The position numbers and the translations under genes are program-made. DNA of 36,902 nt from Natronococcus sp. A-GB7 (GTDB taxonomy: Archaea; Halobacteriota; Halobacteria; Halobacteriales; Natrialbaceae), in assembly GCF_029688865.1 (NCBI RefSeq), contig NZ_JARUKV010000036.1, forward strand, positions 1-36,902, read 5' to 3'. This document shows positions 14,859 to 30,579 of the stretch, piece by piece. Within the stretch, counting starts at the first letter, position 1. Every line of letters begins with the position of its first letter. The notes under the pieces are model-generated. The model was given only the letters and a program-made list of their open reading frames with translations. It was not told the DNA's origin and did not search any database.

Positions 14859-15824
14859 ATGTCCCGCTCGGCACTGGTCGGCAACGTCACCGCGATGCTA
14901 GAGGACGCGGGATTCGTGGTCAGCGACCGGTGTGCGATTCGCCCGAAGAGCTTCGACGTCGCCGCTCGCCGCGGCGACAACCTGTTGCTCGTCAAGATCC
15001 TGGGCAACATCGACGCCTTCAACGAGGAGACCGGTCACGAGATGCGACGCCTGGGGACCTACCTGCAGGCGACGCCGCTGATGATCGGACTGCGCAGCAG
15101 AGACGAGGATCTCAAACCCGACGTCACTTACTTCCGCCACGGCGTCCCCGTCCTCAGCCCCGACACGGCGTACAACCTGTTCATCGAGGACGTCCCCCCG
15201 CTGATCTACGCCGCACCCGGTGGGCTCTACGTCAACATCGACGGCGACCTGCTTGCCGACGAACGCGAGGACCACGAACTGAGCCTCGGACAGCTCGCCG
15301 GTCAGCTCGGCGTCTCCCGGCGAACCGTCTCGAAGTACGAGGACGGGATGAACGCCTCCGTCGAGATCGCGATGGCCCTCGAGGACCTGTTCGACGCCTC
15401 TCTGACCAGCCCCGTCGACGTCCTCGAGGGTGCCGACGACGTCCACGAGAGCGAGTCGACTCCGGAGGATCCCGACGCCGATCCGACCGACGAACGGGTC
15501 GTCGCCGTCTTCACGCGGGCCGGCTACCGAGTTCATCCGACCGTCCGCTCCCCGTTCAAGGCCGTCAGTGAGGACGAGGACGAAAGCGGCGTCGTTCTCA
15601 CCGGCCACTCGGAGTTCACCGAGGCCGCCGAGAAGCGAGCCCGAATCATGAGTTCGATCGGACAGGTGACCCGATCCCAGTCGGTGTACGTCGTCGACCG
15701 GGCGAAACGCGAGTCCGTCGACGGTACGGCCCTCGTCGAACGCGAGGAGCTCGAGGAGCTCCGCGATGCGGACGATCTCCGAGCCGTGATTCGTGAGCGG
15801 GCCGAACGCGAGGAGGCCGTTTGA
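14859..15824 (+). CDS. Archaeal HTH transcriptional regulator (PRK04140-like)
   Basis: This 321-residue DNA-binding protein resembles the conserved archaeal family of putative HTH-type transcriptional regulators. The N-terminal 130 residues form a domain reminiscent of a nuclease-like or restriction-endonuclease fold ([21 protein letters not shown]), which probably serves dimerisation or ligand sensing. A Cro/CI-type helix-turn-helix follows at about residues 140-165 ([23 protein letters not shown]). The C-terminal part from about 205 repeats a similar fold ([20 protein letters not shown] ... [11 protein letters not shown]). ATG 14859 is supported by the TATA box 26 nt upstream. It is divergent from tiaS. 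The target genes are unknown, but the family is widely conserved in Euryarchaeota, which argues for a core role. Confidence 0.88.
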
Positions 15825-15990
15825 GGTCCGACCGGGAACGAGCCTCGAGCATCGACCCATGGTGTCGGCGGCCGTTCTGGTACACTCGAGGCGACCGACC
15901 GAGATAGCTCGTTGCGGCTCACTTTGCCGAGAGAGATCGGACCCGAAGTATCGGCTGCGCCGTACCGACACGGCTGCTATTTGCGTTTCT

Positions 15991-16008
15991 GTTTACGTTT
16001 GCGTAAAC
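15991..16008. repeat. 7-bp inverted repeat GTTTACG-TTTG-CGTAAAC
   Basis: GTTTACG (15991-15997) and CGTAAAC (16002-16008) flank a 4-nt spacer in the gap between two convergent genes. The motif recurs in related form at 19119-19168 and resembles the repeats around the ParA operon. It could be a hairpin terminator for either neighbour, but it lacks an adjoining T-tract, so a protein-binding site is also plausible. Confidence 0.7.
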
Positions 16009-16068
16009 GCTATCGTTCCCGTATCTGTCGACTATCGAGCGCCCGGGCCCGCTCACGGCCGGCCGAGT

Positions 16069-16410
16069 TTAGCACAGAGAGTCGAGCGAGAATCCGGAGG
16101 GATCGATCCGTCCGTTCTGGGGGTCGTAGTCGATGACGTCTGCGTCCGCCATCCGCGGAAGGTGGGTGTGGTGAAGCGTAATCGCGATGCGTTCGACGGA
16201 TACGCCTTCGTCGACCTCGGCGTCGTTCTCAGCTTCGCGTTTCGCGACCGCTACAGCCAGTTCGTCGATTCCCAACAGCTCAGTACGCTCGTCGAGGATC
16301 GCGAGCGCTACTCGTCGCCGGTCCGACATGAGCAGTTCGTGGCGATCGCGTTCGGATAGCTCGACCGTGCGAGTTTCCTCGTCTGCCGTACCGTCTGGGG
16401 TTCGAAACAT
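16069..16410 (-). CDS. DUF7344-like winged-helix regulator
   Basis: This 113-residue acidic protein has the shape of the haloarchaeal DUF7344 winged-helix family. It opens with ELLMSDRRRVALAILDERTELLGIDELAVAVA, which fits helices 1-3 of a wHTH. An EGVSVERIAITLHHTHLPRMADADVIDYDPQNGRI segment follows, which matches the classic recognition helix plus wing (LHHxHLPxLxxxGxIxYD). The DNA-binding role is inferred from this pattern. The gene is divergent from the PAS-GAF-HTH_10 gene at 16601, and the two share a 190-nt intergenic region with a CCTAAG...CTTAGG inverted repeat. It is convergent with the PRK04140-like gene. Confidence 0.82.
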   Translation of the reverse strand: MFRTPDGTADEETRTVELSERDRHELLMSDRRRVALAILDERTELLGIDELAVAVAKREAENDAEVDEGVSVERIAITLHHTHLPRMADADVIDYDPQNGRIDPSGFSLDSLC

Positions 16411-16459
16411 TTCGTGATCATGTCCGTTCGTCGACAGTGTATCGAAGGAGTCACTCGCT

Positions 16460-16486
16460 CCTAAGCAAGGGCTAGAACATCTTAGG
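16460..16486. promoter_or_regulatory. CCTAAG/CTTAGG inverted repeat between divergent regulators
   Basis: CCTAAG (16460-16465) and CTTAGG (16481-16486) are complementary with a 15-nt spacer, giving about two helical turns between centres. They lie 50-76 nt upstream of the DUF7344-like start, in the shared promoter region. Short arms make this a tentative operator. Confidence 0.35.
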
Positions 16487-16600
16487 CAAGACAGGAAAGA
16501 AAAACGGCAAGAGGTCCGATTCTGACCCCCTTTTTCACAACATACTCATCCGGACTCCGTCGACGGAAGACTGATACACACAACCACGGTACACAGAACG

Positions 16601-18823
16601 ATGCGATCGGCATCGCTATCCGACGCGCTTCGAGAGACCCTAGCAGTCTTCGACGAGTCGGGCGAGCCCCGAACGACGCCCGAGGTGGCAGAACAGCTCG
16701 ATCTCGGCCGGCGGAGCACGTACGATCGACTGGACCGGCTCGTCGAGCGAGACTGCCTCGAGACCAAGAAAGTGGGTGCGAACGCTCGAGTCTGGTGGCG
16801 ACCGCTACCGACCGACGACGTGAGCTCGAAGGAGACGGGGACGCCGACCCCCGATTCTGAACGGGGAGTTCGTCAGCACGGGCAGCCGCAATCGACGCTC
16901 GAGGAGGAGATCAGACGGATCAGCGACGGGTTTTTCGCGGTCGACGACGAGTGGCGGCTCACGTACCTCAACGACGCTGCCGCGGCGATGGTCGAGGGGA
17001 CCGAAGCGGAGGCGCTCGGCCAGCGGCTGTGGGACGCGGCGCCGGAGCTGGTCGGGACCACCTTCGAGACGGCCTACCGGGAAGCGATGGAAACCCAGGA
17101 GGCGAACTCCGTCGAGGCGTACTTCCCGCCCCTCGAGGGCTGGTATCGGGACATCGTCCACCCCTCGCCGTCGGGACTGTCCGTTTACTTTACCGACGTC
17201 AGCGAACGCAAGACCCGCCAGCGGACCCTGGAACGGTACGAACGCATCGTCGAAACGGTCGGCGACGGGATCTACGTGCTCGACGGCAACGACCGGTTCA
17301 CGTTCGTCAACGACGCGTTCGTCTCGGTGACAGGGTACGATCGCGAAGAGCTGCTCGGGAGCTCCGCCGAGCTCGTGTTCGGCGACGAGTTCGAGGAGAC
17401 GGCCGCGGAGACCTGGACCGAACTCGAGTCAACGAACCGGAGCGTCGCCGTCCTCGAGGAGCGGCTACGCGGCGCCGACGGCGAATCGTTCGTCGTGGAG
17501 AGTCGGTTCAGCCGGCTCGAACTCGAGGACGGCGAGCGTGGACGCGTCGGCGTCGTCCGCGACGTCACCGACCGCGTCGAGTACGAGCGGGAGCTCGAAC
17601 ACCAGCGCGAGCAGCTGGCGGCGGTGACCAGCCTCGGCGAGGTCGCACGCGAGATCGTCCACGCGATTATCGGACAGCCGACTCGCGGGGGTATCGAGGA
17701 GACGGTCTGTGAGAACCTCGCGAACTCCGACTCCTATCTGTTCGCCTGGATCGGCGAGGTCGACACCGCGACCCGGACCGTGGATCTCCGAACCGAAGCC
17801 GGCGTCGAGGGCTACCTCGACGAGACCACGATCTCGGTCGATCCGAACGACGATCGGAGTCGAGGACCCACGGGACGGGCGTTTCGATCCGGCGAGGTAC
17901 AGACGACGCGGGACGTCGACGCCGATCCCCGGTACGAGCCCTGGCAGGACCACGTCGAACCCTACGGAGTTCAGTCCTCCGCGGCGATCCCGATCACTCA
18001 CGAGGGTGCCATCTACGGCGTGTTGAACGTCTACGCGAAGCGTCCGTACGCCTTCGAGGGACAGGAGGGAAGACAGATCACGCAGCTCGGCGAGGTCATC
18101 GGTCACGCGATCGCCGCCGCCGAGCGCAAGCAGTCGCTGCTGAGCGACGAGCTCGTCGAACTCGAGTTCGAGATCCGGGACGTCTTCTCAGCGTTCGGTG
18201 TTTCGAACGAAACGACTGGGAAAATTACGTTCAACCATACGGTCCCGGTCGGGGACGGCGAGTTTCTCGTCTACGGCACCGCGACGCCGGACGCCGTCGA
18301 GACCGTTCGCGAGCTCGCAACGGCGGTTGACGGAGAGACGGACGTCACCGTTCACTCGGAAGCGACCCCTCCCGGGTTCGAAATTCGGGTGATCGATCCC
18401 CCGATACTCTCGGTTGTCGCCTCTCTCAGCGGATACGTCGATAGCGCGTCGATCGAGGACGGTAACTACCAGCTAACGATCCATCTCGCGCCGAGCGTCG
18501 ACGTCCACCACGTCGTCGACGCCGTCGAGTCGGCGTACCCGGACGCCGAACTGCACTGTCATCGCCAGATCGCTCGGTCGCTGGACGATCCGCGACCCGT
18601 ACAGCGCCGTCTCACGGCCGATCTCACGGACCGACAGCACGCCGTCCTCTCCGCGGCGTACTACGCGGGGTTCTTCGAGTGGCCCCGCGAGAAGTCCGCG
18701 GCGGAACTCGCGGACTCGCTCGACATCGCAGCGCCGACGCTCCACCAGCACCTTCGGAAGGGCCAGCGGAAGGTGTTCGACTCGCTGTTTTCGCCGCCGG
18801 ACGGCTCGAGGGAACGATCGTAA
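16601..18823 (+). CDS. Bat-like PAS-PAS-GAF-HTH_10 sensor regulator
   Basis: This 740-residue one-component sensor regulator resembles bacterio-opsin activator (Bat) relatives. The domain order is: an N-terminal winged helix (residues 1-67, TTPEVAEQLDLGRRSTYDRLDRLVE); PAS 1 (about 100-205, DGFFAVDDEWRLTYLND); PAS 2 (about 210-335, DGIYVLDGNDRFTFVND); GAF (about 350-510, including SSAAIPITHEGAIYGVLNVYA); the Bat-associated domain (about 515-670); and a C-terminal HTH_10 (about 675-730, LTDRQHAVLSAAYYAGFFEWP ... PTLHQHLRKGQRKVF). The PAS and GAF domains probably sense redox, oxygen or a small molecule in the cytosol. A DNA-binding domain at both ends is noteworthy. No membrane segment, kinase domain or receiver domain is present. 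A TATA-like CTGATACAC lies about 30 nt before the start. It is divergent from the DUF7344-like gene. Confidence 0.92.
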   Translation: MRSASLSDALRETLAVFDESGEPRTTPEVAEQLDLGRRSTYDRLDRLVERDCLETKKVGANARVWWRPLPTDDVSSKETGTPTPDSERGVRQHGQPQSTLEEEIRRISDGFFAVDDEWRLTYLNDAAAAMVEGTEAEALGQRLWDAAPELVGTTFETAYREAMETQEANSVEAYFPPLEGWYRDIVHPSPSGLSVYFTDVSERKTRQRTLERYERIVETVGDGIYVLDGNDRFTFVNDAFVSVTGYDREELLGSSAELVFGDEFEETAAETWTELESTNRSVAVLEERLRGADGESFVVESRFSRLELEDGERGRVGVVRDVTDRVEYERELEHQREQLAAVTSLGEVAREIVHAIIGQPTRGGIEETVCENLANSDSYLFAWIGEVDTATRTVDLRTEAGVEGYLDETTISVDPNDDRSRGPTGRAFRSGEVQTTRDVDADPRYEPWQDHVEPYGVQSSAAIPITHEGAIYGVLNVYAKRPYAFEGQEGRQITQLGEVIGHAIAAAERKQSLLSDELVELEFEIRDVFSAFGVSNETTGKITFNHTVPVGDGEFLVYGTATPDAVETVRELATAVDGETDVTVHSEATPPGFEIRVIDPPILSVVASLSGYVDSASIEDGNYQLTIHLAPSVDVHHVVDAVESAYPDAELHCHRQIARSLDDPRPVQRRLTADLTDRQHAVLSAAYYAGFFEWPREKSAAELADSLDIAAPTLHQHLRKGQRKVFDSLFSPPDGSRERS

Positions 18824-18877
18824 ACGAGTCGAGGAGCGAGATATGACCGTTGCTGACCACACCCCACCTCTCTTTTC

Positions 18878-19117
18878 ATGCTAAAGTACATGCATCCAAA
18901 TCACCAAGGTGTCGAAGCTACCCCCTCGAGCGTGTTCTCCTATTTAATTGATAGATACATTAGCTGTACAGAGTGTGGTTTCATCCTCCTGGCGTCGAAC
19001 GCGGAGCGACCACAACCGGAGAGACATCGCACGTGCCCCGACTGTGACGGAACCGAGTTCCGGTTCGAGAGCGACGAACTCACCGCTCTTGAGGAGGAAT
19101 CCGCCCCTCGAAGGTAG
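18878..19117 (+). CDS. Small zinc-ribbon protein
   Basis: This 79-residue protein has a two-knuckle zinc ribbon: CTEC at about residues 30-33 and CPDC at about 52-55, with a strand-like FILLAS between and an EFRFES strand after. The last 15 residues are acidic. Such small zinc ribbons in haloarchaea are usually of unknown function. The start is uncertain: ATG 18878 and ATG 18890 are both possible, and the stretch before the first CxxC is not family-like. A weak TATA-like AGATATGAC lies about 30 nt before 18878. The stop at 19117 is immediately followed by the AAACG motif cluster that precedes the HTH_10 gene. Confidence 0.62.
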   Translation: MLKYMHPNHQGVEATPSSVFSYLIDRYISCTECGFILLASNAERPQPERHRTCPDCDGTEFRFESDELTALEEESAPRR

Positions 19118-19118
19118 T

Positions 19119-19168
19119 CGTAAACGGTTTCGCAGACGATTGCGTAAACGTTTTTGTAAACGTTTGCG
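19119..19168 (+). repeat. Cluster of three GTAAACG-type motifs
   Basis: Three related units occur: CGTAAACGGTTTCGC (19119-19133), GCGTAAACGTTT (19142-19153) and TGTAAACGTTTGCG (19155-19168). All share the core GTAAACGKTT, and the last two contain the self-complementary AAACGTTT. They begin 2 nt after the zinc-ribbon stop and end 86 nt before the HTH_10 start, so they may be operator sites for that gene. The same core appears in the palindrome at 15991-16008, and a CGTTTGCG variant flanks the ParA operon. Confidence 0.75.
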
Positions 19169-19175
19169 TCAGGGA

Positions 19176-19200
19176 GCCACCCTGCGGCCGAAAATCGGCG
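19176..19200 (+). repeat. 25-nt element shared with 14795-14819 (copy 2)
   Basis: This copy matches 14795-14819 at 21 of 25 positions and lies 55-79 nt before ATG 19255. It differs at position 13 and at a GGG-to-AAA triplet (positions 16-18). It sits just after the GTAAACG cluster. Confidence 0.6.
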
Positions 19201-19254
19201 AAGTCGCTTCGGAGAGTCCGACGAAGCCAAGGCGTTTCGTTCCTACTCGAACGT

Positions 19255-19923
19255 ATGGGAGGGACAGTCGCGGAGATCGAACTTTCGCCGGCGGAGTTCG
19301 TCCTCGAGGAGACGATCAACGCCGTCGAGGGACTCGAGTGCGAGGTCGAACGGGTCGTCGCGAACGTCGACGGCGAGGTCATGCCGTTTCTCTGGGTCGA
19401 CGCGCCAGACCTCGAGGACCTCGAGGACGTGCTCGAAGCGGACGAGACCGTCGACAACGTCCGACTGCTTGCGGACGTCGACGGCGAACAGCTCTACCAG
19501 ATGGACTGGGTCCGACGAGTCGACGCGCTCGTCCAGGTACTCGTCGAGGAGGAGGGGACGGTGCTTTCGGCGGTCGGCGACGCCAGCGGCTGGCAGTTCC
19601 GGCTACTGTTTCCCGACCGGGACAGCCTGTCGCGAACGAACGACTACTGTCGATCGAACGGGATCCAGTTCCAGCTTCACGCCGTCTACAGCCTCGAGGA
19701 GGGTCGACAGGGTCGGTTCGGTCTCACCGACGACCAGCAGGACACCCTGGAGATGGCCTTCGAGCGCGGCTACTACGAGATCCCTCGTGATGCCGACATG
19801 ATGGCGCTGGCCGAGGAGATGGACATCTCCCACCAGGCGCTCTCGGAACGGCTCCGTCGAGCCCACCGCAGCCTCGTCCAGAACACCGTCGTGATCGGTC
19901 AGGAGGGTAACCCGGACGAGTGA
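19255..19923 (+). CDS. HTH_10 (Bat-type) transcriptional regulator
   Basis: This 222-residue regulator is of the haloarchaeal HTH_10 family without PAS or GAF domains. Residues 1-155 form the Bat-associated ligand-binding-like domain (AEIELSPAEFVLEETINAV ... GIQFQLHAVYSL). Residues 165-215 are the HTH: GLTDDQQDTLEMAFERGYYEIPR, then MALAEEMDISHQALSERLRRAHRSLVQ, with the recognition helix at DISHQALSERLRRA. ATG 19255 begins the typical MxxTVAEIELSPAEF. Two upstream elements (19119-19168 and 19176-19200) are candidate control sites. It is the second HTH_10 gene within 3 kb and lies upstream of the cupin and FAD enzyme genes, which it could regulate, although the 198-nt gap shows nothing decisive. 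Confidence 0.9.
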   Translation: MGGTVAEIELSPAEFVLEETINAVEGLECEVERVVANVDGEVMPFLWVDAPDLEDLEDVLEADETVDNVRLLADVDGEQLYQMDWVRRVDALVQVLVEEEGTVLSAVGDASGWQFRLLFPDRDSLSRTNDYCRSNGIQFQLHAVYSLEEGRQGRFGLTDDQQDTLEMAFERGYYEIPRDADMMALAEEMDISHQALSERLRRAHRSLVQNTVVIGQEGNPDE

Positions 19924-20121
19924 GGAGGCGACTGTTCTGCCGGTCCGACTCGAGTACGTCGAGAGGCTATCGTCGGCTCCTGTGAGCGTCGACTCGTAGC
20001 GGTGCTGTCACGACTGCAGTCGGCGAGCGATCGGCAGCGGCTGCAGGAGTTCCACCGGCTGGCGACCCGTCATCGGATAGCTATCTGCCGCTCGAGCCCG
20101 TCCCTTCCGTGAGGTTACATT

Positions 20122-20667
20122 ATGGCTACGAACGCGGACGACGGGGTCCGACGCAGAGCGATATTAAAAGCGGGTGTGACGGCGGCAGGAGCGTTCGCGG
20201 TAAGCGGTTCCGCGAGCGCGGCCGGCGACACCGACGACGAGACGAACAACGTCGACGAGCCCGACGGGTTCGAGGTGACAGTCCTGGGGGAACACGCTCC
20301 GTTCGTCGACGACGTTGCCGCGACGTTCGAACTCACCTACGCCGACGGCGAGACGGACGAGCCGACCGTCGTCGAACTCGAGGACGCGTCGACGGTCGTC
20401 GTCGCGGAGGCGACCTGGGAGGCGGGGGCGAGGTCGGGCTGGCACCGCCACCCCGGAATGTCCGTCGTCCACATGGTCGAGGGTGAGATCGAACACACGA
20501 TGGAAGACGACTGCGTCCCCCGGACGTACGCGGCCGGGGACGCGTGGATCGATCCGGGCCACGTCCACAGGGCCGACAGCGAGGACGGCGCGTTCGCCTA
20601 CGTGACGTTCCTCGGGATTCCCGAGGACGAACCGCCGACCGAGTGGGTCGAGCCGGTCGACTGTTGA
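20122..20667 (+). CDS. Tat-exported cupin-domain protein
   Basis: This 181-residue protein carries a twin-arginine signal: RRRAILKAG near residues 10-18, an Ala-rich h-region and a SASA-A cleavage site near residue 33. The mature protein is a single conserved-barrel cupin. Metal ligands are visible in GWHRHPGMSVVHMVEGEIEH (two His and a Glu) and in DPGHVHRAD (last His). Haloarchaea export many proteins by Tat in folded, metal-loaded form, and this one fits. The reaction is unknown: small cupins include isomerases, dioxygenases and binding proteins. The stop is followed 53 nt later by the FAD monooxygenase on the same strand, and a tiny reading frame exactly bridges the gap. Confidence 0.88.
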   Translation: MATNADDGVRRRAILKAGVTAAGAFAVSGSASAAGDTDDETNNVDEPDGFEVTVLGEHAPFVDDVAATFELTYADGETDEPTVVELEDASTVVVAEATWEAGARSGWHRHPGMSVVHMVEGEIEHTMEDDCVPRTYAAGDAWIDPGHVHRADSEDGAFAYVTFLGIPEDEPPTEWVEPVDC

Positions 20668-20724
20668 ATGTCCCCAAATGCCCCATCTCCGATCGGTCGG
20701 GAAGCGGGAGGACCGGAGCCGTGA
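20668..20724 (+). other. 18-codon micro-ORF bridging cupin and FAD genes
   Basis: The cupin stop TGA (20665-20667) is followed directly by ATG at 20668. That ATG opens an 18-codon frame ending in TGA 20722-20724, which overlaps the GTG at 20721 proposed as the FAD enzyme start (GTGA). The peptide (MSPNAPSPIGREAGGPEP) has no recognisable features. The arrangement would suit re-initiation coupling, but this is inferred from positions alone. Confidence 0.3.
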
Positions 20725-22157
20725 CCCTCGCGACCGTTCGGCCAGGCGACGAGGACCGAAGCGGACGGGCGATCGTCGTCGGCGCGGGCGTCGCCGGATT
20801 GACTGCGGCCCGCGTCCTCGCGGACTCGTTCGACTCCGTGACCGTGATCGACCGCGACCCGCTGCCCGACGAGCCCGTCCCTCGGCCCGGGGTTCCCCAG
20901 GCCACCCAGATCCACATCCTCTGGGAAGCCGGTCGGTCGGCGCTCGAGGAGCTGTTTCCGGGGTACACCGAGGAGTTGTGTGCCGCCGGCGGCGTGTCGA
21001 TCGACGGGCGACGCGATCTGCATCTGTACAGTCAGGGCGAGTTCCTGGCGTCGGGATCGTCGCCCTTCCCGCTATATGCGGCGAGCCGACCGCTGTACGA
21101 GCAGCTCCTCCGGCGTCGGGTCGCCGAGCTCGAGGGGGTCAGACTTCGGCCACGGTGCCGGTTCGTTGCCTACGAGACCGACGAGCGGAAAACGGGCGTA
21201 ACGGGCGTGAGCGTTCGACCCCAGGACGGGGATCGCACGGAACTCCCCGCCGAGCTGGTCGTCGACGCGACCGGCAGGACGAGTCGAACCCCGGCCTGGC
21301 TGGCGCGAAACGGCTACGGGCCGCCTCCGGTCGAGGAGGTGACGATCGGGCTGGCCTACACGACGATCGCCCTCGAGCGACCCCCCGACGACCGCCGGAT
21401 GATCGGGATGCTGGCCGAGCCACCCCGGACGAGGGGTGGTGCGGTACTACCTGTCGAGGGCAACCGGTGGCTCGTGAACGTTCACGGGGTCCACGGGGAC
21501 CACCCCCCGACGGACGTCGACGGAGTCGGCGAGTTCGTCGCTCCCCTTCCGACGCCCGTGTTCGACCGATTGCTCGAGGAGTGTCCGCCGCTGGCGGAGA
21601 CGGGCCACCACTACCCGTTTCCCTCGAACCGGCGCTACCGCTACGAGGCCCTCGAGCGGTTCCCCGATGGCCTGATCGTCGTCGGCGACGCGGTCGCCAG
21701 CTTCAATCCCATCTACGGCCAGGGGATGTCCGTGGCCGCGCTCGAGGCGCTGGCGCTCCGCCGCACGCTTCGGGACGGACGGAGCGGGATCCCGACGCGG
21801 TTTTTCGACCGGATGGCGGCGATCGTCGACCCCGCCTGGATGCTGGCGATCGGGGCCGACAGCGCCTTCTCCGAGACGCGGGGCGACGTTCCCCGGGGAA
21901 CCGCAGTCTTCGACTGGTACCTCTCCCGACTGTTTCGGAAGGCCCACGCCGACGGTGCGCTGACGGACGCCTTCCTGGGGGTCCTCTCGATGCAACAGCC
22001 GCCGTCCTCGCTGCTCCGTCCCAGCGTCGCGTGGCGCGTGCTCGGACCGGGGTACGGCGGCAACCGATCGGCTCGAGACCGACCGAACCACCCGCCGTCC
22101 GTTCGAGAGAGCGAGCGCGATCTCTCTCCCCGGCAATCGAGATCGAAACCGCGCTGA
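20721..22157 (+). CDS. FAD-dependent monooxygenase (UbiH/squalene epoxidase-like)
   Basis: This 478-residue flavoprotein of the p-hydroxybenzoate-hydroxylase fold has an N-terminal Rossmann motif (VVGAGVAGLTAARVLADSF, residues 14-32), then RDPLPDEPVPRPGVPQATQIHIL, the GVPQxxxxHxL segment common in group A-like monooxygenases and halogenases. The second FAD motif, GLIVVGDAVASFNPIYGQGMS (about 317-337), carries the GD and P residues of the family. The substrate is unknown but is probably hydrophobic or aromatic, as for polyprenyl-phenol hydroxylases. The start is chosen at GTG 20721 because the Rossmann fold begins soon after. A TTG at 20664 overlapping the cupin stop is an alternative. It is convergent with the MFS gene and probably co-transcribed with the Tat cupin. 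Confidence 0.85.
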   Translation: MTLATVRPGDEDRSGRAIVVGAGVAGLTAARVLADSFDSVTVIDRDPLPDEPVPRPGVPQATQIHILWEAGRSALEELFPGYTEELCAAGGVSIDGRRDLHLYSQGEFLASGSSPFPLYAASRPLYEQLLRRRVAELEGVRLRPRCRFVAYETDERKTGVTGVSVRPQDGDRTELPAELVVDATGRTSRTPAWLARNGYGPPPVEEVTIGLAYTTIALERPPDDRRMIGMLAEPPRTRGGAVLPVEGNRWLVNVHGVHGDHPPTDVDGVGEFVAPLPTPVFDRLLEECPPLAETGHHYPFPSNRRYRYEALERFPDGLIVVGDAVASFNPIYGQGMSVAALEALALRRTLRDGRSGIPTRFFDRMAAIVDPAWMLAIGADSAFSETRGDVPRGTAVFDWYLSRLFRKAHADGALTDAFLGVLSMQQPPSSLLRPSVAWRVLGPGYGGNRSARDRPNHPPSVRESERDLSPRQSRSKPR

Positions 22158-22189
22158 CCCGACGGCAACGGGAACGGAGGACGCCGTCC

Positions 22190-23455
22190 CTACAGGTTCG
22201 GAAGTTCAGTTGCCGGGAGGAGCTGTCCGGTCTCCCGGTAGACGCCGCCGAGAAGGACCGCCGCCGCGACCAGGGGAAGCGCCGCGCAGGCGAGGTACAC
22301 GGGGACGAATCCGACGAGTTCGGTGACCGGAAGCGACACGATCGGGCCGACGCCGCCGCCGACGTCTCCGAGGACGTTGTTCGTTCCGACGGCTCGGCCC
22401 ATCCGACCGTCATCCGTGAGATCGCCGAGCAGCGCCATCATCGGACCGCTCGTCCCGCCCTGTCCGGCACCGATGAACAGGCAGGCGACGGCGAGCGTCC
22501 CGGCCGAGTCGGCGGACGCGAGAAGGACGAACCCCACGAACAGGATCCCGAGAAAGCACAGCAACACCGGGACCCGCGACTGCTGCAGGTCGCTTACGTA
22601 GCCGCCGAGGAACATGAACAGTCCCGCGGTGACGACCGTGATCGCCATGAACAGTCCGGAGGTCCCCTGCGCGTCGAAGCCGAGCAGCCCGATGTCGTTC
22701 TCGCCGAGAAAGAGAACCAGCGTCGAGAACAGGACGCCGAAGTAGACGAAGAGTACGGCGAAGTTGATCAGTCCAACCGTCACCGCGGGGACACTCGTGT
22801 CTACGTCCCACGGCTTCACCGACTCGCGAGCGTCGCCTTCCACGTGCGTCTCCGGGATCGTCGCGTACGCCAGTCCGCTGGCGACGAACGCGAACACCGT
22901 CGCGAGGAGAAACGCCGCGATCTCCCCGCCGATCTCGCTGACGACGCCGCCGACGACCATCCCGGTCGGCGCCCCGAAGAGAACCCCGCCTCTGATGAGG
23001 CCCATACTGGTTCCCCTCGAGCCGCCGTCGCTGACGTCGGAGGCGATCGTGTAGGCGGTCGCGAACACGAGCGCGCTGCCGACGCCCCACAGGAACCGCG
23101 CGGACAGAAACCACACCTCGGGAGCGGGCGCTGGAATAGCGACGACGTACCCGAGCGTGGCGAACCCCTGGACGAACATGCCGACGACGAAGGGCGTTCG
23201 CGTCCCGATCCGATCGACGAGGATACCGGCGGGTGCGTTGGCGACCAGCCGCGAGAAGCGATTCGCGCTGAGGATCACGCCGACCATGAACGGAGAGATC
23301 CCGAGAAGGACCCCAAGATTCGGCAGGATCGGGAAGATCACACCACCGCCGAAGCCGATGAAGAACGTGCTGAGTATCACGGCACCGATGACGACGTACT
23401 GGTCGCTGCCCGCTCCGCTCAGCCGGTCGATCGTTCGTGCTATCGATCCGCTCAT
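22190..23455 (-). CDS. MFS transporter (first copy)
   Basis: This 421-residue permease of the major facilitator superfamily has twelve predicted membrane helices. The signature loop between helices 2 and 3 is visible as GILVDRIGTRTPF (about 77-90), with a related VGTNNVLGDVGG region in the second half. The long internal hydrophilic loop between helices 6 and 7 (PETHVEGDARESVKPWDVDT) splits two six-helix bundles. Small-molecule efflux is the usual role of such haloarchaeal members, and no substrate can be assigned. The gene is convergent with the FAD enzyme. A palindrome at 23537-23552 and a TATA-like CATATATT near 23605 lie upstream. Confidence 0.9.
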   Translation of the reverse strand: MSGSIARTIDRLSGAGSDQYVVIGAVILSTFFIGFGGGVIFPILPNLGVLLGISPFMVGVILSANRFSRLVANAPAGILVDRIGTRTPFVVGMFVQGFATLGYVVAIPAPAPEVWFLSARFLWGVGSALVFATAYTIASDVSDGGSRGTSMGLIRGGVLFGAPTGMVVGGVVSEIGGEIAAFLLATVFAFVASGLAYATIPETHVEGDARESVKPWDVDTSVPAVTVGLINFAVLFVYFGVLFSTLVLFLGENDIGLLGFDAQGTSGLFMAITVVTAGLFMFLGGYVSDLQQSRVPVLLCFLGILFVGFVLLASADSAGTLAVACLFIGAGQGGTSGPMMALLGDLTDDGRMGRAVGTNNVLGDVGGGVGPIVSLPVTELVGFVPVYLACAALPLVAAAVLLGGVYRETGQLLPATELPNL

Positions 23456-23536
23456 TCGGTCTCGCTGCTGCCATCCGGGCGCGTTCGATCCTCACGCCCC
23501 GTACGCATCAGTCCGAACCGTTCGTCGATTCCCATC

Positions 23537-23552
23537 CTGACTGCCTAGTCAG
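23537..23552. promoter_or_regulatory. CTGACT-GCCT-AGTCAG palindrome upstream of the MFS gene
   Basis: Six-base arms are perfectly complementary around a 4-nt spacer. It lies 82-97 nt before ATG 23455. The TGACT...AGTCA form resembles operators bound by TetR-family repressors, which often control MFS efflux pumps. No TetR-like gene is present nearby, so a repressor would have to be encoded elsewhere. Confidence 0.5.
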
Positions 23553-23722
23553 TTAGCGCTGAAAGTGATTGCGATCTCGTCCGAGGAGCGGTTAGTGAAG
23601 CAATATATGGTTTATCAGGGATACGGATGGTCTCTCGTCGAGCCGAAGTCGTCGACGTGCCGACGAGCACGGGCCGAGATATCGAAGGCATCGGTCGGGC
23701 CTACCGCAGCTCGAGGGAGGGT

Positions 23723-23758
23723 CAAACGCAAACGAAAACGCAATCGGAACCGCAAACG
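23723..23758 (-). repeat. CGTTTGCG-type repeats downstream of the ParA operon
   Basis: The plus strand contains CAAACG at 23723-23728, 23729-23734 and 23753-23758, with degenerate copies between (AAAACG, CAATCG). Read on the minus strand these are CGTTTG units in roughly 6-nt steps. They start 4 nt after the stop of the ParA partner. The same CGTTTGC core sits in the promoter of parA (25008-25027). Confidence 0.7.
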
Positions 23759-23761
23759 ACC

Positions 23762-24142
23762 TCAAATATTCCGCTGAGCGTGGCGCCCGACTGCGTCGCT
23801 GAGCTGTTCAGTTTTCTCGGGCGTCGCGGTCTCGAGCCCGACGCGGACGGCCAGCCGGACGATCTCGCTGCGGTCGAACTCCTCCGAGCGCTCGCGTCCG
23901 AGCGCCTCCTCTAAGGCGTTGCCGACCGCGGTCATCTCGGTGTCGTCCTCGTCGAGGGTCGCCAAAAGCGCCGCGACGGGTTGATCGCGGACGGCGACCG
24001 TCTTCGGTCGCTCCCCGCTGTCGACCGCCTCGATAGCGTCGACGAGTTCGTCGACGAACGCGGAGTCGGCCTCGGTTCTGATCTCGTCGTTTCGATCGCC
24101 GCGCTCGGTCTTCTTTCGTAGCTCCTCGAGCTCGTCGCTCAT
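23762..24142 (-). CDS. ParA partner protein, ribbon-helix-helix-like
   Basis: This 126-residue acidic protein starts inside the parA stop codon (four-base ATGA overlap, 24139-24142), so the two are surely co-translated. The N-terminal 30 residues are highly charged and helical. A strand-like KTVAVRDQPVAALLATL follows. The C-terminal part (EEFDRSEIVRLAVRVGLETATPE) resembles the helix pair of a ribbon-helix-helix or CopG-type DNA-binding domain. In ParA-type systems the second gene encodes the DNA-binding or ATPase-stimulating partner, and this position and pattern fit such a role. It does not look like a canonical ParB: the HTH and CTP-binding GxRR motif are absent. The RHH assignment is tentative. 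Confidence 0.7.
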   Translation of the reverse strand: MSDELEELRKKTERGDRNDEIRTEADSAFVDELVDAIEAVDSGERPKTVAVRDQPVAALLATLDEDDTEMTAVGNALEEALGRERSEEFDRSEIVRLAVRVGLETATPEKTEQLSDAVGRHAQRNI

Positions 24143-24999
24143 CGCCGCTCACCCAGCCGGCGCTGGAGTACGGAGGCGCTGTCGAGGAACGCCTCGCGAG
24201 CGCGTTCGGCGGTCGTGGAGGGCTCCTCGAGTGCGAACACCGTCCGGCCCTCGTCGGCGGCGTTCCGGATGTCCTGGCTCGCGGGGACGTGTTCGGGGGC
24301 GATGGCGCCCTCGTACTCCTCGCCGAACCCCTCGAGGTACTCGTTTGCGAGCTTCGTCCGGGTGTCGACCTTGTTCGGCAGGATCATCGCGAGGTCGACG
24401 TCGACGCCGAACTGGTCGTCGATCTTCGCCAGATCGCGCTCGAGGGCCGTCGCCTGCTCGCTCTCGAAGGGGCCCATCTCGACGGGCGCGACGACGTTTC
24501 GGGTCGCCCAGAGCCCGTTGTAGGTGACGTTGTTCGTCAGTCCCGGCAGGTCGATCAGGACGGTATCGTACCGCCCGTCGATGTACTCGTCGAGGAAGCG
24601 CTCGAGTCGAGAGTAGCGCTCTCGAGCATCGTCGATGTTGCCGAGGTCGGCGTCGAGCGAATCGAGCCCGGGGTGGGCAGGGATCAGATCGACGCCCTCG
24701 TCGGTCTCGACGATCAGGCTGTCGACGGCCGCGTCACCGAGCTTCGAGGCGATCTGGTCCCACTCCTCGGCGAATACCGTCGAGATGTTCGGCCAGTCGT
24801 CGTCGTTCTCGATGTCCTCCTGGACCTCCGACCAGACGCCGAAGTGTTTCGCCAGGTCGCCCTGTTTGCCGGCGAGGTCGATGAGCAGGACGTCCTCGCC
24901 CGCTTCGGCGAGTGCGACGCCGAGATGGGCCGCCGAGGTCGTCTTTCCGGTGCCACCCTTGTCGAGAAAGGTCGCGGCTCGATTGGTGCTGACTTCCAT
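24139..24999 (-). CDS. parA: ParA/Soj-family ATPase
   Basis: This 286-residue P-loop ATPase has the deviant Walker A motif of ParA/MinD proteins (K14-GGTGKT-T21), the switch-like DLAGKQGDLAKHFG segment (where ParA usually has D-P-Q-x-N), Walker B in TVLIDLPGLT (about 145-154), and PNKVDTRTKLANEYLEGF later in the chain. ParA proteins form ATP-dependent dimers on DNA and position chromosomes, plasmids or large protein complexes. The short N-terminus (13 residues before the P-loop) means there is no separate N-terminal DNA-binding domain as in type Ia ParA, so any autoregulation would need the partner. The CGTTTGC repeats overlap the promoter. It lies on what looks like ordinary chromosome, with no Orc1/Cdc6 gene nearby. 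Confidence 0.9.
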   Translation of the reverse strand: MEVSTNRAATFLDKGGTGKTTSAAHLGVALAEAGEDVLLIDLAGKQGDLAKHFGVWSEVQEDIENDDDWPNISTVFAEEWDQIASKLGDAAVDSLIVETDEGVDLIPAHPGLDSLDADLGNIDDARERYSRLERFLDEYIDGRYDTVLIDLPGLTNNVTYNGLWATRNVVAPVEMGPFESEQATALERDLAKIDDQFGVDVDLAMILPNKVDTRTKLANEYLEGFGEEYEGAIAPEHVPASQDIRNAADEGRTVFALEEPSTTAERAREAFLDSASVLQRRLGERR

Positions 25000-25338
25000 T
25001 CCGTATCCGTTTGCGCAAGCGTTTGCACCTAATATAAAAGCTCGTCAGACGCTCACAGAACGGCGTTCGGCAGCCGATTACACGCGATAAAACCTCGAAG
25101 GCGCCCGAGCACGACGACTCGAAACGGCGGAGGCGAATCGGCGAGTGCTGTCGACAAATCAGATAGCGCTATACACAATCCCGATCAGCGACCGAAACGC
25201 GAGGGTCGTGAAAGTAGCCACCGGCGACTCGAGGCCGGCTCGCATCGGAGGTAAGCGAGTCGGTCAGTCCGCTCGGAAAGCGACTCGCTGCGTCGAATCG
25301 GGCCCGATAAGTAGCCGTACACGTTTCGATCGGAACGA
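25000..25338. other. 339-nt interval between parA and the MFS gene
   Basis: No gene is supported in this divergent interval. The left end is the parA promoter with its repeat element (25008-25040). At the right end CCCGATAAGTAG (about 25298-25309) may be the TATA region of the GTG-started MFS gene at 25339. I see nothing else in the middle. Confidence 0.6.
25008..25040 (-). promoter_or_regulatory. parA promoter with CGTTTGC operator-like repeats
   Basis: The minus strand has a TATA box (CTTTTATATT, 25031-25040) about 34 nt before ATG 24999, so transcription should start at about 25005-25010. Between them sit two CGTTTGC direct repeats (25008-25014 and 25020-25026) around a TTGCGCAA palindrome (25011-25018). 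A protein bound there would cover the transcription start and repress the operon. Confidence 0.6.
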
Positions 25339-26526
25339 GTGGGAACGATTTCGACACGCTGGCGGTACCGGGAGACGGTGCTGGCGCTGTGTACGCTCGC
25401 CTTCTTCGTCACGATGGTGGGGCGGCTGGCGATCAGCCCGATCATCCCCGACATCGTCGACACGTTCTCCGTCTCGAACGCGGTCGTCGGGCTCTCGCTG
25501 AGCGGGATGTGGCTCGCGTACGGACTGGCGCAGTACCCGAGCGGCGTGCTGGCCGACCGCTACGGGGAGCGGCTGATCATCCTCGTCGCCGTCGGGGGGT
25601 CGGCGCTGGCCGCGCTCGCCGTCTCGCTCACGCCGGCGTTCGCGCTGTTTTTCCTCGCGACGATCGCGCTCGGCGCCGTCGCCGGCCTCCACTACAGCGT
25701 CGCGACGACGCTGCTCGCCCGAACCTACGACAACGTCGGTACCGCCGTCGGCGTCCACAACACGGGCGCGACGATCGCCGGGCTCGTCACGCCCGTCGCC
25801 GTCGCCTGGCTGGCCGTCCGGTTCGGATGGCGGGTGGCCGTCGCCGCCGTCGCCCTGATCGGGATCCCGTCGACGATCCTCTTCGCCTGGAAGGTCCGTC
25901 CCACCGAACCCCGACGCCCGGAGACGCCGCTTCGGGATCGGTTTCAGGTCGCACCCGTCCTCGAGCTCCTCTCGCGGCCGCCGATCGCCTTTACATTGTT
26001 CGTCGCGATCGTCAGCGAGTTCGCCTGGCAGGGAACCGCCTCGTTCCTGCCGACGTTTCTCATCGAACACCAGGGCGCCTCGACGACGTTCGCGGGAGTG
26101 CTGTTCTCGGCGTACTTCGTCGTGCAGGGCGTCGCCCAGATCGGCGTCGGCGCCCTCTCCGATCGGATCGGGCGGGACCGGGCGATCGGTCTCTGTATGC
26201 TCGCCGGCGTGGTCGGGTTCGGGGTGCTGATCGCGTCCTCGAGCACGCTCCCGATCGTCGCCGGAATCGTGCTCGTCGGGATCGGGATGAGCTTCGGGGC
26301 GGCGCTCATGCCCCGATTCTTACAGGAGCTCTCCGCCGAGGAACAGAACGCCGGGTTCGGGCTCGTCCGCACCGTCTACATGATCGTCGCCGCGCTGGGG
26401 TCGGTCGTCGTCGGCGCCCTCACCGACCTGTTCGGCTGGGCCGTCTCCTTCGGCTTTCTCGCCGCCTTGCTCGGCGCGGTCGGGCTGGCGCTCGCGCTCA
26501 ACTCGCTGCTCGGACTCGAGTACTGA
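25339..26526 (+). CDS. MFS transporter (second copy)
   Basis: This 395-residue major facilitator has twelve predicted membrane helices. The helix 2-3 loop signature GVLADRYGERLII (about 68-80) and its second-half counterpart GALSDRIGRDRAI (about 273-285) are both clear. The N-terminal helix contains RLAISPIIPDI, a segment frequent in drug/metabolite MFS members. The start is GTG 25339, supported by a TATA-like GATAAG about 32 nt upstream. It is divergent from parA and upstream of the rhodanese-persulfide dioxygenase on the same strand with a 95-nt gap. The substrate is unknown, and it is not closely similar to the MFS gene at 22190. Confidence 0.88.
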   Translation: MGTISTRWRYRETVLALCTLAFFVTMVGRLAISPIIPDIVDTFSVSNAVVGLSLSGMWLAYGLAQYPSGVLADRYGERLIILVAVGGSALAALAVSLTPAFALFFLATIALGAVAGLHYSVATTLLARTYDNVGTAVGVHNTGATIAGLVTPVAVAWLAVRFGWRVAVAAVALIGIPSTILFAWKVRPTEPRRPETPLRDRFQVAPVLELLSRPPIAFTLFVAIVSEFAWQGTASFLPTFLIEHQGASTTFAGVLFSAYFVVQGVAQIGVGALSDRIGRDRAIGLCMLAGVVGFGVLIASSSTLPIVAGIVLVGIGMSFGAALMPRFLQELSAEEQNAGFGLVRTVYMIVAALGSVVVGALTDLFGWAVSFGFLAALLGAVGLALALNSLLGLEY

Positions 26527-26588
26527 CCGAACACGCGGTCTCGCCGTGGCCCAAACTGCAGTCGGTCGGTGGCGGTTTCGTGCAGCGA

Positions 26589-26596
26589 AGTTAAGA
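26589..26596 (+). promoter_or_regulatory. TATA-like box of the persulfide dioxygenase gene
   Basis: AGTTAAGA lies about 30 nt before ATG 26622, giving a leaderless or near-leaderless transcript independent of the upstream MFS gene. Confidence 0.45.
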
Positions 26597-26621
26597 GCCG
26601 ACGTGCACGATATTGTGGTGT

Positions 26622-27743
26622 ATGAGCAACACCAATCTCGAACCGACGGAGATCGCCCGCCGGATCGACGAGAGCGACGAGGATCTCTTCGTGCTCGACG
26701 TCAGAAACGAGGACGACTACGAGGAGTGGCGGATCGAGGACAGCACGAACCTCCCGATCTACGACGAGCTGCTGGACCACGACTACTCGACGCTGGCGGA
26801 CCATCTCGAGGAGCTCCCCGAGGCTCGAGAGATCGCGATCGTCTGCGTCGCCGGCATCACGTCGGCGCGGGCCGCCGACTTCCTCCGCGAGCGCGGGTTC
26901 GACGCGAAGTCGATCGACGACGGGATGAACGGCTGGGGACGGGTCCATCGCTCCTACGAGGTCGACGGCGCCGACGGCGTCGTCCAGATCGTCCGTCCCG
27001 GAACGGGCTGTGTCTCCCACGTCGTCCACGACGGGACGGCAGCCGTCGTCGTCGATCCGAGCCAGTACGTCGACTACTATCTGAGCGAGGCCGACGAGCG
27101 CGACCTCGAGATCGTCGCCGTCGCGGACACCCACGCCCACGCCGACCACGTCTCGGGTGCCCGGCGTCTCGCCGGCGAACTCGACGTCCCCTACCACCTC
27201 CACGGCGACGACGTCGGCGAACTCGAGGGGGTCGCGGAGCTCGAGGACGGCGACACCGTCCCCGTCGGCGACCGATCGCTCGAGACCGTCCATACTCCGG
27301 GCCACACGCCCGGAAGCGTCTCGTTTACGTTCGGCAACACGGTGCTGTCCGGGGACACGCTGTTTCTCCGCAGCGTCGGTCGCCCCGACCTCGAAGACGG
27401 CGACGAGGACGCGATCCGAGCGGCCTCGAGCCGGCTGTTCGACAGCCTCGGTCGGCTGCTCGAACTCGAGGGCGACCGGATAGTCCTCCCCGGCCACTTC
27501 AGCGACGAGTCGATCCGCCCGCTGGCGACCGGCCTCGAGGAGCTCCGCCAGGAGACGACGAACGAGCTGCTGGGCTACGTCGAGGAGGGTGACGAGGAGG
27601 CGTTCGTCGAAACGATCGTCGAGAGCCTGGCCGACGAGCCGGCGAACTACAACGAGATCAAGCAGATCAACTGGGGAAAGAACCAGCCCGGCGACGACGT
27701 CGAAGAACTCGAGCTCGGACCGAACAACTGCGCGGCGAACTGA
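26622..27743 (+). CDS. Rhodanese-persulfide dioxygenase (MBL-fold) fusion
   Basis: This 373-residue enzyme is probably involved in sulfane-sulfur handling. Residues 1 to about 105 are a rhodanese domain with the active-site Cys75 in VCVAGITS. Residues about 120-340 are a metallo-beta-lactamase fold of the ETHE1/persulfide-dioxygenase type, with the metal motif H171-A-H173-A-D175-H176, then HTPGHTPGS, LSGDTLF and LPGHF. The rhodanese would carry persulfide and the dioxygenase would oxidise it, with sulfite as product. Known bacterial PDO-rhodanese fusions have the opposite domain order, so this arrangement is notable. The tail ends NYNEIKQINWGKN..., as in related haloarchaeal proteins. It is convergent with a glutaredoxin gene. 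ATG 26622 follows a TATA-like box. Confidence 0.9.
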   Translation: MSNTNLEPTEIARRIDESDEDLFVLDVRNEDDYEEWRIEDSTNLPIYDELLDHDYSTLADHLEELPEAREIAIVCVAGITSARAADFLRERGFDAKSIDDGMNGWGRVHRSYEVDGADGVVQIVRPGTGCVSHVVHDGTAAVVVDPSQYVDYYLSEADERDLEIVAVADTHAHADHVSGARRLAGELDVPYHLHGDDVGELEGVAELEDGDTVPVGDRSLETVHTPGHTPGSVSFTFGNTVLSGDTLFLRSVGRPDLEDGDEDAIRAASSRLFDSLGRLLELEGDRIVLPGHFSDESIRPLATGLEELRQETTNELLGYVEEGDEEAFVETIVESLADEPANYNEIKQINWGKNQPGDDVEELELGPNNCAAN

Positions 27744-27788
27744 CGACGGGCCTGGGCTCGGGAAGCAGAAAGCGGACCGAACGGACGA

Positions 27789-30463: not shown

Positions 30464-30579
30464 GGGCGGCGCAGAGAGCCGTGGACGCGCAGTCGAGATG
30501 GGATGGGGTATCGTTCGGCGCGTCCGTCGTATTCGTCCACGCTCCGACCAATAAAACCACGTCAGACGGCCGGCTGACG

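Follow-up and report, generated by a model that had tools for sequence, protein, structure and literature searches.

In type Ib plasmid partition, ParA is combined with a ribbon-helix-helix partner and an iterated centromere, as in the delta/omega system of pSM19035, and bacterial chromosomal ParABS systems have several parS sites over one part of the chromosome. The SegAB system of Sulfolobales has 46 SegB sites as counted by motif, most of them intragenic, and anucleate cells appear when segB is deleted (excerpts of PMC12284271). For haloarchaea, no centromere or chromosomal partition locus is named in excerpts of PMC5120986, PMC7617429 and PMC7776575, or in the titles and abstract openings that literature searches listed.

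Here we analyse a ParA operon in a Natronococcus genome of 4.88 Mb in 77 contigs (G000); the window is one entire contig of 36,902 bp (G000:C30), and its features are collected in Table 1. With type Ib systems the locus shares the gene order, a small partner and a short iterated centromere (here a presumed one) that is also found in the operon leader, whereas its partner best fits SegB with extra helices, and the module is chromosomal with dispersed arrays. As in ParABS, the arrays are spread over one part of a chromosome; unlike ParABS, the partner is without ParB resemblance and the sites are hexamer arrays. Haloferax volcanii MinD proteins belong to the same ParA/MinD superfamily of ATPases (excerpts of PMC11588486), but the ParA of the window comes with a DNA-binding-like partner and DNA arrays.

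The resemblance to SegAB, as excerpts of PMC12284271 describe it, lies in a ParA-type ATPase and a partner of probable SegB fold encoded by overlapping genes, with sites both near the operon and across the chromosome. In contrast to the 13-bp TCTAGASTCTAGA palindrome of SegAB, the sites here are phased hexamer arrays, few and intergenic rather than 46 and mostly intragenic; moreover, relatives of the module are found on plasmids, and its ParA is nearer to Soj. Because the 13-bp TCTAGASTCTAGA motif (up to 3 mismatches) showed no excess in the window (3 matches against 6.35 expected) and ParA is nearer to Soj, we refer to a ParA/SegB-fold partition system and not to SegAB.

Table 1. Coordinates of the partition module and associated elements in the window
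Feature	Position	Strand	Remarks
12-kb block holding the module	15820..27780	.	three congeners lack it here
Site D, dispersed hexamer array	15978..16009	+	about 7.7 kb from the module; score 19/22
Site E, weaker array	19120..19168 (start approximate)	+	imperfect hexamers; array-pattern match
Downstream CGTTTN hexamer array	23721..23758	-	presumed centromere; score 20/22
Partner gene	23762..24142	-	126 aa; N-terminal LEELRxxTxxGDR motif and SegB-like domain; presumed centromere-binding protein
parA-like gene	24139..24999	-	286 aa; deviant Walker A DKGGTGKTT
Leader array	25008..25026	+	flanked by TATA-like box and parA ATG; presumed to serve as centromere and in autoregulation
Promoter element GTCTGACG..TTTTA	25035..25050	-	conserved in many modules irrespective of repeat letters

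The parA operon and the fold of the partner

As originally predicted, the parA-like gene and its small partner overlap by four bases (24139-24142, ATGA); in relatives the partner gene likewise follows parA, often overlapping it. The ParA protein (P0001) matched the Pfam families AAA_31 (2.2e-19) and CbiA (3.9e-14), both over the cut-off. By sequence, it matched a Thermus Soj-type protein at E 1.3e-11 and 7dut_A, named Soj in its listing and taken by us to be SegA, at E 0.23; judged by these sequence matches, it is much nearer to bacterial Soj than to SegA. Its closest named relatives are from Natronococcus amylolyticus and Natronococcus sp. A-GB1 (99% ParA identity). Both genes of the module are under strong purifying selection, with dN/dS of 0.013-0.130 for parA and 0.041-0.119 for the partner when the window genes are compared with five syntenic relatives, and 0.105 for either gene against the congener G093. 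The locus had been noted to have no replication-origin gene nearby, and orc1/cdc6 matches are indeed absent from the window contig. Two further ParA paralogues of the host genome (G000:C13:37199, L002; G000:C37:9743, L005) differ from the window ParA in lying about 2 kb or less from orc1/cdc6 genes.

Two features of the partner are conserved across 31 relatives, an N-terminal L..LR..T..GDR motif and, C-terminally, a DRSEIVRLALR block. The partner of the window (P0002) gave nothing over the Pfam cut-off and nothing in PHROGs, and it was unmatched by the RHH family model; RHH_1 matched 2 of the 31 relatives weakly (best E 0.02). A profile search of PDB sequences with the partner did not return SegB up to E 10. 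The WD40 proteins that this search gave, by way of repeated weak matches, were dismissed.

The original prediction had called the partner RHH-like, a description that gains no support from Pfam, whereas structure models back a SegB-like (RHH) fold. AlphaFold (AF2) models were obtained with pLDDT of 87.3 for the window partner and 87.2 for a Halobaculum partner. For the window partner, Foldseek matched SegB 7dv2_A weakly (E 3.5, prob 0.21), and on realignment this entry ranked first (Z 6.3, rmsd 2.9, 76/76 residues; next row 4.5). For the Halobaculum partner, the top two Foldseek matches were SegB entries (7duv_A, E 0.15, prob 0.99, TM 0.78; 7dv2_A, prob 0.82) that realigned at Z 6.7 and 6.8, with a 46-residue stretch of a ribosome-assembly protein as runner-up at Z 5.5; Z values of about 6-7 are moderate for a helical protein and denote fold likeness only. 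The models thus give good, though not conclusive, support for a SegB-like fold of the partner. Segment 47-53 (KTVAVRD) of the window partner, at the place expected for the ribbon strand, is non-helical in the monomer model.

Phased arrays and repeat letters in the module family

Repeats had been described on both sides of the ParA operon, and CGTTTN hexamer arrays do flank the gene pair beyond chance. The window contains 7 copies of the motif CGTTTGCG, where 1.48 are expected, and a count of 7 is reached in 0 of 100 shuffles; four of the seven copies are in or beside the locus, and one is within parA at 24342. A three-hexamer array pattern (up to 3 mismatches) has 9 matches in the window against 0.12 expected (0/100 shuffles); the locus accounts for five of them, 15978-16009 for three and 19149-19168 for one. 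The repeat signal is the 6-bp phasing and not the bare hexamer; the plain count of CGTTTG was rejected as a signal, since it shows no enrichment when the entire window is taken (15 copies, 12.6 expected). Two details of the original description are corrected: the downstream array starts 3 nt and not 4 nt past the last stop, and the CGTTTGC copies said to overlap the promoter are present at 25008-25026 but stand between the TATA-like box and the ATG, off the promoter core.

Upstream of the operon, G[TC]CTGAC is found within 130 nt in 35 of 59 unique modules, and GTCTGACG with a TATA-like box precedes modules even in nanohaloarchaeal and Halorutilus records; it is a possible shared activator site. 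A second GTCTGACG copy lies at window positions 30552-30567 (-) and is matched in L123-L127, L187, L189 and L190.

The pair is found well beyond the window. Scanning genome contigs with ParA gave 41 loci, of which 39 (L006-L044) are relatives at 48% identity or more and two (L045-L046) distant matches only, and 47 plasmid records had a ParA match at E 1e-20 or better, the organisms listed coming from the haloarchaea; orthologues of ParA and partner are present in the 39 contig loci, for which some of the partner rows are truncated, and in the 47 plasmid records. Of the 125 genomes of the host family, 27 contain a ParA match at E 1e-40. Viral contigs contained no relative, and phage records gave 17 weak matches, each below 60% identity. 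The earlier reading of ParA, partner and sites as a partition module is strengthened by the orthologues on plasmids, most with arrays on one or both sides. Among the relatives generally, phased repeats with letters specific to the lineage persist on at least one side in most cases; absence of the repeats from relatives, an outcome that had been named as counting against the earlier reading, is therefore not what is seen. In addition, two genera share on their chromosomes (L129 and L130) an 11.3-kb stretch that contains a CTATAGG-type module and is 98% identical, which indicates recent transfer.

We surveyed the repeats in 59 unique modules from 71 parsed (L076, L083 and L084 were dropped as no ParA was found). 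Beside the operon, self-matches recur most often at a distance of 6 or 12 bp in most near-family members and of 7 or 13 bp in some distant ones. CGTTTN repeats accompany modules of Natronococcus, Natrinema and Halorussus, and CTATAGG repeats those of Halorubrum, Halobaculum, Halobacterium and others; L041 has ATACAG-like and L043 CGATAACG-like repeats. Where the presumed DNA-reading strand of the partner carries Arg, at least 2 CGTTTN matches are found in 19 of 21 unique modules (exceptions L041, L092), and where it carries Trp, CTATAGG is found in 16 of 19 (exceptions L034, L036, L037); the crossed pairing (Arg with CTATAGG or Trp with CGTTTN) did not occur among these 21 Arg and 19 Trp modules. 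By sequence, then, the repeat letters follow one residue of the partner's presumed DNA-reading strand, an association and not a set of independent events, as the module rows are related and a few strand motifs were read by eye.

The same letters and strand residue are present on plasmids of the same family, for example Natrinema NZ_CP084478 (84% ParA identity). The chromosomal arrays and partner might thereby titrate or mispair incoming plasmids that carry the same CGTTTN centromere; such incompatibility would not by itself need a conserved ParA, and we consider it unlikely as the function of the locus.

Flanking repeats of the two counted motifs were absent from L029, L030, L032-L038 and L044. 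Three of these modules (L029:5878-6300, L030:5866-6303 and L032:5872-6285) encode partners with a duplicated ParA-contact-like N-terminal motif, in which the SegB-like part is replaced by DUF7140 (Cys/His motif); L044 is grouped with them by sequence position only. The DUF7140-type modules are candidate ParA systems for non-DNA cargo, and they lend some colour to the suggestion, part of the original prediction, that the ParA of the window positions a protein array instead of DNA. As the window lineage keeps both the SegB-like domain and the arrays, that suggestion finds no support at this locus, where we regard it as very improbable, and it may apply to the DUF7140 modules.

Residence on the chromosome and dispersed arrays

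The module is present in 7 of 9 Natronococcus genomes, on a contig of 4,013,216 bp in G089 and 4,145,149 bp in G093, and its surroundings are common to six of them (G000, G087, G088, G089, G091 and G092). In line with the impression that the locus is normal chromosome, a finished genus genome shares it on a 4.0-Mb chromosome. The remaining congeners (G090, G093 and G094) lack the 12-kb block at this place, as their counterparts of window positions near 15,820 and 27,780 come within about 130-315 bp of each other; the module of G093 is elsewhere on its chromosome, within 2 kb of an orc1 gene. In a ParA tree, from which the truncated L039 was left out, the syntenic group forms one clade (100/99) inside a group with a Natrinema plasmid. 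At the position of site D, arrays scoring 18-21 lie nearby in four of the five other syntenic genomes, and near site E arrays scoring 18-19 are found in G088, G089 and G092.

Further arrays were sought with a 26-mer pattern (up to 3 mismatches, forward plus reverse) in the nine genus genomes. Matches numbered 15 in G000, 11 in G087, 10 in G088, 5 in G089, 13 in G091, 15 in G092, 6 in G093 and 0 in G090 and G094, and a backward-pattern control gave 1, 2, 2, 0, 2 and 4 in the six syntenic genomes in the same order and 0 in the other three. Collapsed by hand, the overlapping matches of the syntenic genomes make up 30 places: 6 at the module, 6 at a site A, 5 at B, 6 at C, 2 at D, 1 at E and 4 others (L229-L232); these four give GN/EN-type runs when read in an overlapping frame, and two of the runs reach a stop. 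Flank alignments identify A, B and C as orthologous places across the syntenic genomes, with arrays in 6/6, 5/6 (none at B in G088) and 6/6 genomes, respectively, or 17 of 18 genome-site pairs. In G090, G093 and G094 there are arrays at 0 of 9; scores there were at best 12-15 of 22 in the A and C gaps and nowhere 17 or more in the 10-kb stretches around B, and G093 has one score of 17 near A, outside the gap. No position scored 19 or more in 10 Mb of order-3 Markov sequence. Of three G093 places checked, one is an ET repeat and the other two have no obvious reading.

The arrays hold their phase while hexamer order and spacer letters vary between genomes, and all six checked by codon composition are intergenic (0/6 overlap a gene). 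A new finding is that, in six syntenic Natronococcus genomes, the chromosomal module is accompanied by like arrays at three intergenic sites far away from it. In G089, the single finished syntenic chromosome, A is at 925,534, the module at 1,302,707, B at 1,335,196 and C at 1,590,716, a span of 0.67 Mb out of 4.01 Mb. Unlike in ParABS, the best-scoring orc1 gene of this chromosome is at 2.6 kb and the arrays at 0.93-1.59 Mb. Other orc1 genes lie at 893 and 948 kb, either side of A; since the genome has 17 Cdc6_C matches, we draw no inference from them. At site A, four genomes have about 9 kb (L132, 8.8-17.8 kb, and orthologues) between flanks that directly adjoin in G089, and the array is kept with or without this stretch. 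The array of site B (L133, L192) stands just past class III PHA synthase genes phaE-phaC and an SDR gene.

A shorter, 20-mer pattern was rejected as sole evidence, as it matches 75 of 125 family genomes, including genera without a near module (up to 28 matches in genus g3 and 34 in g14). For all seven places fetched from these two genera (L223-L228, L236), a reading as coding repeats (ET, GN or EN) is possible, and the 20-mer pattern alone is therefore not evidence.

A control for the replicon is provided by four Halorussus genomes (3.8-5.2 Mb), in which all 63 array matches (15/15, 10/10, 25/25 and 13/13), some of which may be coding repeats by their letters, are on the replicon of the module. 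The contigs concerned measure 434, 311, 390 and 473 kb, one a named complete plasmid and three draft scaffolds, and many matches are near the module, with some about 60-320 kb distant. The module accounts for 4 of 5 array matches in one Natrialbaceae genome and for 4 of 7 in another. The pattern of A-C in Natronococcus (17/18 against 0/9) together with the Halorussus result indicates that arrays track the module.

These results bear on two other readings. The partner could mainly be a transcription regulator with A, B and C as operators: one array is in the parA leader, and the dispersed ones are near gene starts or ends (an F420-dependent oxidoreductase gene at A, phaE-phaC-SDR at B, purL at C). 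However, the genes beside the three sites are unrelated, the far-side gene of array B differs between G089 and G000, the Halorussus arrays are confined to the module replicon and the partner gene overlaps that of ParA, all of which makes this reading quite improbable. Alternatively, the locus might be the relic of an integrated plasmid, its module working or decaying and its arrays without a chromosomal role. In favour of a relic, members of the family are often found on plasmids, three congeners lack the 12-kb block, and the proximity of the related G093 module to orc1 is what an integrated replicon would show. Yet among ten proteins scanned in and beside the block no plasmid genes were found, only regulators, a cupin, an FAD enzyme, two MFS transporters, a rhodanese-lactamase protein and one without a family; both module genes are under purifying selection; and arrays A, B and C are outside the block and have kept their phase while neighbouring spacer letters changed. 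We therefore judge a mere relic to be rather improbable.

A probable partition system and its possible role on the chromosome

We conclude that the locus is probably a three-part partition system, composed of ParA, a SegB-fold partner and CGTTTN arrays, that derives from a plasmid, has settled on the chromosome and has extra arrays as centromeres. In the proposed mechanism, dimers of the partner would bind the phased hexamer arrays in the manner of parS sites, and the N-terminal LEELRxxTxxGDR peptide of the array-bound partner would stimulate the ParA ATPase. ATP-loaded ParA would bind the nucleoid, and DNA bearing arrays would be moved or kept apart along a ParA gradient. Through the leader array beside the parA promoter, the partner may repress its own operon. 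Haloarchaeal plasmids would be the origin of the module, which would then have become resident on the chromosome of one Natronococcus lineage; there, arrays A, B, C and D/E, over about 0.67 Mb, would serve as additional centromere sites. No feature of the locus is left unexplained by a ParA motor, a SegB-fold adaptor and centromeres made of hexamer arrays.

The original prediction had offered a stabilised chromosomal partition module as one possibility, and this is now well supported: the family is common on plasmids, the module is chromosomal here, and its arrays are conserved and dispersed along with it. More tentative, at somewhat less than an even chance, is the reading as a working centromere system of a haloarchaeal chromosome, in which a captured plasmid module and distant arrays, acquired and selected, organise or segregate about one sixth of the polyploid genome. 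The six syntenic genomes are close relatives, such that a single gain, or a single loss, may account for the site pattern; the dispersed sites number only three to five; and the G093 chromosome has the module yet no array at A, B or C. Haloarchaea are polyploid (excerpts of PMC5120986 and PMC7617429), which makes active partition of the chromosome less of a necessity. A further point against a chromosomal role is that Thermus thermophilus, likewise polyploid, can dispense with its chromosomal par locus (excerpts of PMC4409726).

Looking forward, the question addressed is how the many chromosome copies of haloarchaea are shared out, and the locus may be the first recognisable centromere system of a haloarchaeal chromosome. 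If so, culturable Natronococcus would offer a defined system of three parts for which binding sites are predicted, with the empty sites of congeners as a natural control, and the locus would represent a plasmid sorting system on its way to becoming a chromosomal one. The pairing of strand residue and repeat letters offers a ready test of centromere specificity, and would tie plasmid partition to the archaeal SegB fold.
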